Position numbers and translations under genes: made by a program. From the IMG/VR virus record IMGVR_UViG_3300039106_000104, positions 1-20,140 of that record: a DNA stretch of 20,140 nt. One strand, 5' to 3'. Under the pieces are notes generated by a model. It was not told the origin of the DNA. It saw nothing but the letters and a program-made list of their open reading frames with translations, and made no database searches. This DNA is from a virus. This document shows positions 1,489 through 10,340 of this stretch, one piece after another. The number at the start of each line of letters is the position of its first letter. Position 1 is the first letter of the stretch.

Positions 1489-1802
1489 CTACTATCACTT
1501 GGAGCATCACAGCAATGAACTGCTCAACCACTGAGCAAAACCCTGACACAGTAATCGTATGCCACTGGACATGTTCAGGAACAGACGGAACTTATAACGC
1601 TTCTATCTATTCCACTTGCTCAGTACCATCACCTACTGGCTCATTTACACCCTATGACCAATTAACGCAAGAGCAAGTGCTTGGATGGTGCTATGCCAAC
1701 GGAGTAGACAAATCCGCCACTGAAGCGGCTGTAGAGGCTCAACTGCAAGCGCAGATTAACCCGCCTGTGGTGACTCCTGCTTTGCCTTGGAGTGCAGCAT
1801 AA
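1485..1802 (+). CDS. Small conserved phage protein (DUF7936-like), 105 residues
   Basis: Starts MTTITWSITAMNC and ends VVTPALPWSAA. Small phage proteins with an opening 'MTTITWSI', a short beta-rich domain, a central '(D/E)QLTxEQVxGW' helix (here 'DQLTQEQVLGWCYANG', residues about 60-75) and a terminal '(L)PW' form a recurring family of unknown function, usually called DUF7936; this assignment is from memory of the pattern. Unlike what I would expect for the family it carries five cysteines in 105 residues. It starts inside the stop codon of the preceding gene (ATGA). No signal peptide or membrane segment. It is probably cytoplasmic or a minor virion component; function unknown. Confidence 0.65.
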   Translation: MTTITWSITAMNCSTTEQNPDTVIVCHWTCSGTDGTYNASIYSTCSVPSPTGSFTPYDQLTQEQVLGWCYANGVDKSATEAAVEAQLQAQINPPVVTPALPWSAA

Positions 1803-1804
1803 AC

Positions 1805-2041
1805 ATGGTAGACGAGCCAGTCACTCACGAACACATCTATGAGCGTTTACTGGCTGTAGAGTCCAAGGTAGACAACATAGAGAAGAATACACAAGATGTA
1901 ATCAAAGCCTTTAACGCTGCCTCAGGTGCTTTCCTAGTGCTTGAGTGGATCGCTAAAGCTGTGAAGCCTATCATTATCATAGGTGCTTTCTTCGGGGCTA
2001 TTTGGTTAGCTCTTGATAACAGATTTAATGGAGTTAAGTAA
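1805..2041 (+). CDS. Small membrane protein, coiled coil plus one TM segment (holin/XhlA-like?)
   Basis: A 78-residue protein with start ATG at 1805, three bases after the previous stop. The frame is open upstream to a TTG at 1787, but that would overlap the previous gene and lacks a ribosome-binding site. Residues about 8-35 (HIYERLLAVESKVDNIEKNT) look like a short coiled coil. Residues 37-52 are amphipathic, and residues 54-70 (VKPIIIIGAFFGAIWLA) form one transmembrane helix. This layout, coiled coil then one C-terminal TM, resembles XhlA/haemolysin-like phage membrane proteins that accompany holins. It lies far from the endolysin (8 kb), so a lysis role is uncertain. Confidence 0.7.
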   Translation: MVDEPVTHEHIYERLLAVESKVDNIEKNTQDVIKAFNAASGAFLVLEWIAKAVKPIIIIGAFFGAIWLALDNRFNGVK

Positions 2042-8533: not shown

Positions 8534-8707
8534 ATGAAGAGGCTAACTCTAGCCCTTCTAATCATCTTTACGAGTTTTATAGCGACAGCTGGCTTCGACC
8601 CTAACGCAGATAGATGTGTTAAGTGGACATGGAAGTGGGCTGCTGACTATAAGACTCGTATTGTCGTGTGTCTTGAATGGAAGAAAGCATACAAAAATGA
8701 TCGTTGA
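8534..8707 (+). CDS. Small exported protein, 57 residues, two Cys and Trp-rich
   Basis: ATG at 8534, seven bases after the previous stop, encodes 57 residues. It opens with a clear Sec-type signal peptide: MKRL, hydrophobic core TLALLIIFTSFIA, and a likely signal peptidase I site after 'ATA' (residues about 17-19). No lipobox Cys follows the core, so it is not a typical lipoprotein or Rz1-like spanin. The mature part of about 38 residues has Cys28 and Cys46, which could form a disulfide in the periplasm, and four Trp ('CVKWTWKW', 'VVCLEW'). It overlaps the next gene by 11 bases. I recall similar short phage proteins with a C-x-x-W pattern but no known function. Location at the start of the lysis cassette suggests an envelope role. 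Confidence 0.68.
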   Translation: MKRLTLALLIIFTSFIATAGFDPNADRCVKWTWKWAADYKTRIVVCLEWKKAYKNDR

Positions 8708-9194
8708 TCCTCTAACAGCTCTAGCAGGTATACAGAATGCTATTAGCATGGTCAAGAAGGCTAGTAAAGTAGCTAATGACCTAGGCTCTCTTGCCCCGAT
8801 GATTGGCAAGATGTTCGATGCTAAAGCAACTGCCACTAAAGCATTGATTGAAACTAAGAAGGGTAAAGGTTCCAATATGGGAACAGCTCTTCAGATTGAA
8901 ATGGCCTTGGAACAAGCCAGAGCCTTTGAAGAAGAACTTAAGATGCTCTTTATGACTACAGGTAAGGTTGATGTCTGGAATAAGATTAAAGCCCGTCAAG
9001 ACCAGATGGACATCGATGACGCAAGGGAACTAAGGTCTTTAGAGAAAGCTGAGAAGAAGGCTAAGCAAAAGGAACAAGAGATGAATGAACTAGCCATGAT
9101 TATAGGTGGTTGTTTCTTTGTTCTCTTCTTAGTCTTTGTTGGCATCTATGAGTTAATGGACTTCTGTAATACTACTCAAAGGTGTGGACGTTAG
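8697..9194 (+). CDS. Membrane protein with coiled coil and C-terminal TM, lysis region
   Basis: A 165-residue protein with ATG at 8697 (MIVDPLTALAGIQNAI). The same frame is open upstream to 8616, but that part overlaps the signal-peptide gene and has no ribosome-binding site. Residues 1-50 are helical and resemble the opening of a widespread phage family ('MIDPiTA...a..lvkkg...g.d....g...g'). Residues about 95-130 are a highly charged coiled coil ('KIKARQDQMDIDDARELRSL', 'EKAEKKAKQKEQEMNE'), and residues 133-152 (AMIIGGCFFVLFLVFVGIYE) form one transmembrane segment. The tail has two Cys. It recurs near lysis or virion genes in related phages (memory, not checked) and its function is unknown. 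The stop overlaps the next start (TAGTG). Confidence 0.72.
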   Translation: MIVDPLTALAGIQNAISMVKKASKVANDLGSLAPMIGKMFDAKATATKALIETKKGKGSNMGTALQIEMALEQARAFEEELKMLFMTTGKVDVWNKIKARQDQMDIDDARELRSLEKAEKKAKQKEQEMNELAMIIGGCFFVLFLVFVGIYELMDFCNTTQRCGR

Positions 9195-9343
9195 TGAATG
9201 AATATCAGAAGACATTTGATATATGCCTCAAGATATTTATCTACGGGTGCATGGCTTTGTGGTTTCTTGGTTTCTTAAAGTTTCTCCCTGATGATCTCTC
9301 CAATAAGATTGTCAATTTATTACTTGGTAAGATAGGACTATAA
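9194..9343 (+). CDS. Small membrane protein, 49 residues, GTG start (holin-like candidate)
   Basis: GTG at 9194 overlaps the stop of the previous gene (TAGTG). The 49 residues start VNEYQKTFDICLKIFIYGCM and contain one hydrophobic helix (residues about 10-31, 'ICLKIFIYGCMALWFLGFL') followed by an amphipathic tail 'DDLSNKIVNLLLGKIGL'. It ends at 9343, one base before the ATG of the holin-like gene. One TM, small size and position upstream of a holin and an endolysin suggest a holin, antiholin or pinholin accessory. No upstream AG-rich site is obvious, so expression probably depends on coupling to the preceding gene. Confidence 0.6.
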   Translation: MNEYQKTFDICLKIFIYGCMALWFLGFLKFLPDDLSNKIVNLLLGKIGL

Positions 9344-9344
9344 T

Positions 9345-9839
9345 ATGTTAGAAATGCTTGGTGGTGGTTTACTTGGAAGTATCTTCGGAGGTCTGTTTAG
9401 ACTGGCTCCGGAAGTACTTAAGTGGGCAGATAAGAAGAATGAGCGTTCACATGAGCTTAATATGTTCAAGTTCCAGTGTGACTTGGAAGCTCAGCGAGGA
9501 CAACAAAAGTTAGCTGAGATAGGTGCTCAACGTGAAGCTGCTATTGATACTGGTGTCATGAATGCCTTTCAGTCAGCCATTGAGCAACAGACTGAGATGG
9601 TTAAGGCTGCTGGAGGCTGGGTAGCTTCTCTGTCTGCCTCAGTACGTCCTGTGGTGACTTACTGGATCTTAGGTCTGTGGAGTTTCATCCACGTATGGTT
9701 GTCCTACAATGCTTGGGTGTCAGGTATGCCTCCACTGGATGTCTTTAAAGTCATGATGTCAGCTGACTTTGCAGCCTTGGTCTCAGGTACTTTGAACTAC
9801 TGGTTCCTTGACCGTACATTGTCTAAACGAGGTCTGTGA
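9345..9839 (+). CDS. Holin, 3TM / gene-transfer-release type
   Basis: A 164-residue protein with three hydrophobic stretches: residues 5-20 (LGGGLLGSIFGGLFRL), 102-125 (PVVTYWILGLWSFIHVWLSY) and 138-156 (MSADFAALVSGTLNYWFLD). The middle is a charged helix (28-85). 'SASVRPVVTYW' followed by an acidic/hydrophobic 'DFAALVSGTLNYWFLDRTLSKRG' end is the pattern of the 'holin of 3TMs, for gene-transfer release' family (PF11351, from memory). It would form the inner-membrane hole that lets the endolysin reach the cell wall. It directly precedes the endolysin and shares the sequence TGATG with its start. Confidence 0.8.
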   Translation: MLEMLGGGLLGSIFGGLFRLAPEVLKWADKKNERSHELNMFKFQCDLEAQRGQQKLAEIGAQREAAIDTGVMNAFQSAIEQQTEMVKAAGGWVASLSASVRPVVTYWILGLWSFIHVWLSYNAWVSGMPPLDVFKVMMSADFAALVSGTLNYWFLDRTLSKRGL

Positions 9840-10279
9840 TGGACTTAAGTATTGCAGCTGAGCTGTGCAAAAGGTTTGAAGGGTTTAGAAGTAAGCCCTA
9901 CTTATGTCCTGCCAATGTAGCTACAATAGGTTATGGAAGTACTTACTACGCTAATGGTGTGAAGGTTACTCTAAATGACGTTCCGACGACACAAGAGGAG
10001 GCTCATGTTCTTTTGATGCACGAATTGGAACATACGTACTTACCGGGTGTTGTCAGAAACTGCCCTGTACTTCTGACAGATACTAGGAAGCTCAATGCTA
10101 TTGTAGACTTTTGTTATAATTTAGGTACAGGTAGACTACAAACTTCTACACTGAAACGTAAGATTAATGCTCAGGATTGGGACGGAGCCAAGGAAGAGCT
10201 ACTTAAGTGGAACAAGGGTGGCGGTAAAGTACTTGCTGGACTTGATAAGCGAAGGAAAGCAGAAATAGCACTATTCTAA
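9839..10279 (+). CDS. Endolysin, GH24 T4-type lysozyme (E-C-T catalytic set)
   Basis: A 146-residue muramidase cutting peptidoglycan between MurNAc and GlcNAc. ATG at 9839 overlaps the holin stop (TGATG) and follows GAGG; a GTG at 9836 is in frame immediately before it. The GH24 active-site signature is present: Glu14 in 'RFEGFR', Cys23 in 'YLCPANVATIGYG', Thr29 in 'ATIGYG', with the standard E-8aa-C-5aa-T spacing. Cys in place of Asp is common in this family (for example P1 Lyz). Further family motifs are 'LNAIVDFCYNLG' and 'LKWNKGGGKVLAGLDKRRKA' near the end. No N-terminal TM or signal-anchor-release sequence is present, so export depends on a true holin lesion. Confidence 0.93.
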   Translation: MDLSIAAELCKRFEGFRSKPYLCPANVATIGYGSTYYANGVKVTLNDVPTTQEEAHVLLMHELEHTYLPGVVRNCPVLLTDTRKLNAIVDFCYNLGTGRLQTSTLKRKINAQDWDGAKEELLKWNKGGGKVLAGLDKRRKAEIALF

Positions 10280-10304
10280 GTTTCAAACTTACAATTACAA
10301 TAAG

Positions 10305-10340
10305 AAAGCCCTTAAGAGTTTTATCTCCTAAGGGCTTTTT
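10305..10340. terminator. Bidirectional rho-independent terminator between convergent gene blocks
   Basis: AAAGCCCTTA at 10305-10314 pairs with TAAGGGCTTT at 10329-10338, giving a 10 bp stem with a 14-base loop. On the + strand it is followed by T residues to 10340; on the - strand the complement of the A-rich left side (AATAAGAAA, 10299-10307) supplies a weaker U tract. It lies 25 bases after the endolysin stop and 6 bases beyond the stop of the last - strand gene (10346), so it can end transcription from both directions. Confidence 0.85.

Follow-up and report, generated by a model that had tools for sequence, protein, structure and literature searches.

Among surveyed phages of Gram-negative hosts, 13% (about one in eight) appear to lack a known spanin (PMC6139136, PMC12819732). 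One lysis system without spanins, that of phage phiKT, employs a disruptin, which the account of Holt et al. 2022 given in PMC12819732 describes as a short cationic phage peptide with an LL-37-like helix. The lysis region described here resembles those of the spaninless phages (PMC6139136) in that a holin and an endolysin are present and neither a lipoprotein/i-spanin pair nor a u-spanin was found, but it differs in that the same accessory module is common to close relatives that have spanins and close relatives that lack them, which makes for a natural comparison. The first gene of this module, ORF1, likewise specifies a short, cationic product within a spaninless lysis system; as far as the cited account of the disruptin goes, ORF1 differs in being a predicted two-Cys β-hairpin with strongly conserved residues and in occurring beside spanins as well. 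The second, ORF2, belongs to phrog_32327, a family without functional annotation that includes ORF60 of Puniceispirillum phage HMO-2011 (E 3e-89 against the family profile). In HMO-2011, CRP-1, and Limnohabitans DC31, the family member is found within a few genes of the endolysin; the ORF1 partner and Cys tail seen in our sequence were not seen in these three. A further point of comparison is T4 RI, a periplasmic antiholin and thus a small exported Cys-bearing protein that acts in lysis. ORF1 is likewise small, exported, and Cys-bearing, but it accompanies several non-homologous holin-like genes and is for this reason probably not a holin-specific antiholin; we rejected the idea of an antiholin dedicated to a single holin on the same grounds. 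We know of no experiment on any member of the ORF1-ORF2 module.

We analyzed an IMG/VR fragment of 20,140 bp from a freshwater phage (hereafter, the window), which encodes a family A DNA polymerase (nearest isolate pelagiphage HTVC104P, 47% identical), a tail gene, a B12-type ribonucleotide reductase (RNR), and genes that, by position, look like internal-virion genes. As this is a fragment, much of the phage genome may lie outside it, and that part can be judged from relatives alone. The lysis region (positions 8534-10279) comprises five overlapping or abutting genes (Table 1); all five members of the cassette proposed in a first-pass annotation of this DNA were found, with small refinements of their coordinates, and are conserved and under purifying selection. 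Among 80 first-round relatives, ORF2 and ORF3 are kept in every one, ORF1 is detectable in 78, and the ORF2/ORF3 overlap spans four bases in 66. This retention, together with low pN/pS values (0.14 for the ORF1 core, 0.13 for ORF2, and 0.10 for ORF3), shows that ORF1-3 are real genes. A small gene far upstream of the cassette (Table 1, last line), whose product weakly matches a phrog_689 holin (E 0.018), may also belong to the lysis set, judging from the position of a similar gene immediately upstream of ORF1 in three relatives (L007, L010, and L050).

Table 1. Genes of the lysis region and one further small gene of the window
Feature	Position	Strand	Length	Start	Description
ORF1	8534..8707	+	57 aa		Sec-type leader and short mature peptide; two Cys
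ORF2	8697..9194	+	165 aa	ATG	phrog_32327 family; start overlaps ORF1 end
ORF3	9194..9343	+	49 aa	GTG	One TM; overlaps ORF2 end
Probable holin	9345..9839	+	164 aa		phrog_6637, E 3e-32
Soluble GH24 endolysin	9839..10279	+	146 aa	ATG	Pfam Phage_lysozyme PF00959, E 4e-35, full profile length
Small protein	1787..2041	+			Hydrophilic N-terminal part, helical in appearance, and a single C-terminal TM (by eye, an XhlA-like plan)

The endolysin is clearly a GH24 enzyme, as first proposed: the Pfam match is joined by one to the phrog_7 endolysin profile (E 4e-45), and the N-terminal hydrophobic segment is absent. Its active-site spacing is E14-8-C23-5-T29, with a Cys in place of the common Asp. The preceding gene is called a holin because of its position and its homology (45% identity) to an AcaML1 gene that adjoins a lysozyme gene. 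The earlier label of a 3TM-type holin is thus retained for its second half, with the 3TM designation uncertain, since the hydrophobicity profile has one strong segment and two or three weak ones and no Pfam holin family, GTA_holin_3TM (PF11351) included, was matched; a homologue in L005 scores E 0.8 against PF11351. The protein consists of an N-terminal hydrophobic stretch, a helical middle, and one strong and one weak TM segment near the C terminus.

The mature ORF1 peptide is about 38 residues long, Trp-rich, and carries a net charge of about +4, with C28, W31, D38, C46, and W49 invariant in a 40-sequence alignment. A β-hairpin (27-35/42-50) is predicted by AlphaFold, with a pLDDT of about 95 within the hairpin. 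C28 and C46 fall on opposite faces of the predicted hairpin in a register read by hand, which argues against a simple intramolecular C28-C46 disulfide in this model. A BLAST search of isolates with ORF1 alone returned chance mycobacteriophage matches and nothing else, and a Foldseek search of the PDB with the model was uninformative. ORF2 matches the phrog_32327 profile over residues 3-155 (E 2e-10) and is predicted to be all-helical, with one TM segment at about 132-150, near the C terminus (C-tail-anchored), followed by a tail of about 15 residues that holds two Cys; the structure model is all-helical as well, at low confidence (pLDDT 61).

ORF1 and ORF2 recur as overlapping neighbors in hundreds of aquatic phages and make up a widespread, conserved gene pair of lysis cassettes. 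We distinguish three ORF2 clades, denoted w (that of the window), m (MW202879 type), and d (MW202701 type), with w and d joined by profile comparison (E 2e-24). An ORF1-like two-Cys gene precedes ORF2, mostly with an overlap of a few bases, in 278 of the 318 loci with enough upstream sequence, a count obtained with a search pattern that itself demanded two Cys. The invariant C, W, D, C, and W of ORF1 span clades w and m plus a few members of clade d; the clade d gene at this position has a different two-Cys core, and its homology to ORF1 is for that reason not established. The leader also varies by clade, being hydrophobic and Sec-type in w, Pro-rich and devoid of a hydrophobic segment in most of m, and mostly short and non-hydrophobic in d. 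In clades w and m combined, the two-Cys tail of ORF2 accompanies 160 of 164 hydrophobic ORF1 leaders versus 13 of 55 Pro-rich ones, while clade d contributes 11 hydrophobic leaders paired with an ORF2 that lacks tail Cys. This correlation is a hint, not proof, of direct ORF1-ORF2 contact; in the tree it is strongly clade-structured, with few independent changes, and the idea of a covalent ORF1-ORF2 disulfide is weakened because the Cys tail follows clades.

The module is partnered by several unrelated holin-like genes, is found in both podovirus- and myovirus-labelled genomes, and has an endolysin nearby in 170 of 210 loci, the enzyme being of the GH24, GH19, GH108, or M15 type (four unrelated families). 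In cultured phages, ORF2 homologues lie near the endolysin in HMO-2011, where ORF60 is four genes upstream of the lysozyme, and in Limnohabitans DC31, CRP-1, and CRP-118. In the window and many relatives, the module directly follows internal-virion or tail genes, a position between these and the lysis genes that would also fit a role in the virion or in exclusion. ORF1-ORF2-ORF3 might accordingly encode membrane proteins of the virion, of DNA ejection, or of superinfection exclusion whose genes happen to adjoin those for lysis, all three products being small membrane or exported proteins and phrog_32327 offering no annotation to the contrary. We consider this doubtful, given that the module stays near endolysins of all four families across genomes of both labels, and that HMO-2011 and CRP-1 have their ORF2 homologue in the region of the lysozyme and terminase genes. 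In two relatives (L013:1966-2475 and L071:5450-5995), an ORF that by eye resembles an HNH endonuclease is placed between ORF1 and ORF2, splitting the otherwise overlapping pair; the window has a comparable ORF at 817-1317.

A six-frame scan detected no lipobox signal in any window ORF, and hence no u-spanin (lipobox and C-terminal TM in one protein), and none of the called membrane ORFs of the window has the i-spanin plan of an N-terminal TM. The same scan found no lipobox lipoprotein in nine related contigs with the window-type holin/GH24 arrangement, and recovered both lipoproteins in two control contigs. The phrog_1327 Rz profile identified Rz in four Rz-type control contigs (G017, G018, G022, and G023) and gave no credible match in the window-type contigs, the one short weak match being to a 44-aa frame in G002 (E 0.007). 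The nearest near-complete relative is G008 (36,018 bp), one of the nine contigs, which has the gene order of the window, including RNR and polymerase, and an ORF1 98% identical over 53 residues; we regard it as near-complete because, in three other contigs, its two end genes are adjacent or have a single gene between them. No spanin was found in the rest of G008, nor was a lipobox ORF found in the complete circular genome MW202710, which has a related holin and GH24 enzyme, or over 50.0 of the 54.8 kb of MW202701. MW202879 gave one lipobox match, antisense inside ORF2, that looks spurious. The first-pass observation that the cassette has no recognizable spanin is therefore upheld for the window, and no lipoprotein of an Rz/Rz1 pair was found elsewhere, in the nine related contigs, G008 among them, or in MW202710.

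Sister phages whose ORF2 is 80-95% identical, and which also have ORF1 and ORF3, encode an Rz i-spanin; a Pro-rich Rz1 lipoprotein is nested in its gene, as seen in a detailed reading of the L017 and L018-contig controls. Such an Rz with nested Rz1 is as found in phages of Gram-negative hosts. A more distant ORF2 relative, accompanied by ORF1, is located on a Rhodoferax MAG contig; this contig and two weak matches were returned when genome contigs were searched with a clade d query, and the window-clade query returned no relative. Cultured relatives have Limnohabitans, Roseobacter-group, and SAR116 bacteria as hosts. On the strength of these three lines, the host of the window phage is likely Gram-negative, and the Gram-positive host that would have made a spanin superfluous is disfavored.

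The sister phages also bear on the proposal, made at first pass, that ORF1 or ORF2 replaces the spanin. ORF1 accompanies all 56 Rz-positive cassettes of clade w (Rz1 nested where checked) and all 34 Rz-negative ones, counts of related sequences rather than of independent events, and its mean net charge is 4.1 in the former versus 4.3 in the latter (p 0.37). Over all clades, Rz is found in 57 of 210 cassettes, each with a lipobox ORF; of the 153 with no Rz match, 150 also lack a lipobox ORF, such that most cassettes of these aquatic phages have no recognizable spanin. A clade m cassette with a GH19 endolysin (L131) is an exception among the Rz-negative ones and has two lipobox ORFs. The cultured ORF2 relatives are similarly mixed, with an Rz and embedded Rz1 in DC31, a two-component pair in CRP-118, a u-spanin candidate in CRP-1, and no spanin seen in the HMO-2011 cassette. 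Spanins thus appear optional around a constant module whose presence, by gene content, does not correlate with their absence. Since the pair is equally present in Rz-positive and Rz-negative cassettes, it is not simply a spanin substitute, and the idea that these proteins are a response to a missing spanin has to be corrected; in addition, the topology of ORF2 is not that of an i-spanin, and no lipobox is present in ORF1. A degenerate two-component spanin, with ORF1 as the o-like and ORF2 as the i-like partner, is very improbable for the same reasons: the genes are adjacent and overlapping, one product is exported and the other is in the inner membrane, and the Cys in both would fit the intermolecular disulfides typical of spanins (PMC6139136), but the TM segment of ORF2 is C-terminal, its tail of about 15 residues is too short to span the periplasm, and a genuine nested Rz/Rz1 stands beside the same pair.

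The phage most likely lyses its host with the holin and the GH24 endolysin, without a dedicated spanin. The fuller reading that we favor, which we hold to be about evenly balanced between right and wrong, is of a spaninless holin-endolysin cassette preceded by a conserved accessory module, ORF1-ORF2 with or without ORF3, that acts at the inner membrane. The holin would open the inner membrane and the GH24 enzyme would cut the wall. ORF2 would be an inner-membrane protein whose short tail, with two Cys in this clade, is probably periplasmic, and ORF1, a folded two-Cys hairpin exported in clade w, would act with it as a pair at that membrane. Since the holin partners are unrelated, action on a host target or an activity contained in the module itself is likelier than holin-specific control, and the pair would most likely prepare or time lysis via a host target rather than via the variable holin. 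The outer membrane would then be broken by shear, by osmotic stress, or with help from ORF1.

The last of these routes recalls the first-pass suggestion of an outer-membrane-acting factor, which survives for ORF1 as an unlikely reading and is weakened by the lack of an export signal in most ORF1s of the sister clade, m. ORF1 might be a disruptin-like peptide, a cationic Trp-rich hairpin that, after cleavage of the wall, breaks the outer membrane whether or not a spanin is also there; it would be exported through Sec or, in other clades, stay in the cytoplasm until the holin triggers and lets it out. The charge, Trp content, predicted hairpin, and export of the clade w peptide are consistent with this, as are its place in lysis cassettes and the 153 of 210 of these with no Rz match, and the phiKT disruptin, as presented in PMC12819732, is a precedent for a phage peptide in this role. 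We nonetheless judge it improbable: ORF1 does not follow spanin absence, its invariant specific residues suggest a folded binder over a generic membrane-active peptide, most of clade m combines a Pro-rich, signal-less leader with a lower charge (mean 2.4), and the disruptin of that account is an amphipathic helix. Quite unlikely as well is a broader version, in which ORF1 is the first example of a distinct class of phage lysis peptides, Trp-rich β-hairpins with two Cys and a swappable leader that, together with ORF2, would breach the outer membrane for hundreds of phages from aquatic habitats. The occurrence of a nearly identical module in phages with and without a spanin provides a large natural set in which the outer-membrane question is testable by gene swaps.

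Several further features were noted in these cassettes. A second lipoprotein (LLTGC...YRYKCQNPD..), distinct from Rz1 and matching no Pfam or PHROG family, is encoded upstream of the holin-like gene in L017 (6811-7014) and in many Rz-positive sister loci. The u-spanin candidate of CRP-1 is gp54 (L357:4870-5211), a hypothetical protein of phrog_30566 with a lipobox and a C-terminal TM segment that resembles an unannotated u-spanin. DC31 gp112 (L355:4985-5323) and CRP-1 gp56 (L357:4074-4403) occupy a holin-like position and have two apparent TM segments and an N-terminal EF-hand-like motif, which in gp112 scores below the Pfam cut-off; a calcium-responsive holin is possible. Finally, an inverted repeat with a T-run at 10295-10340 of the window, between the convergent lysis and RNR operons, has by eye the look of a shared terminator.
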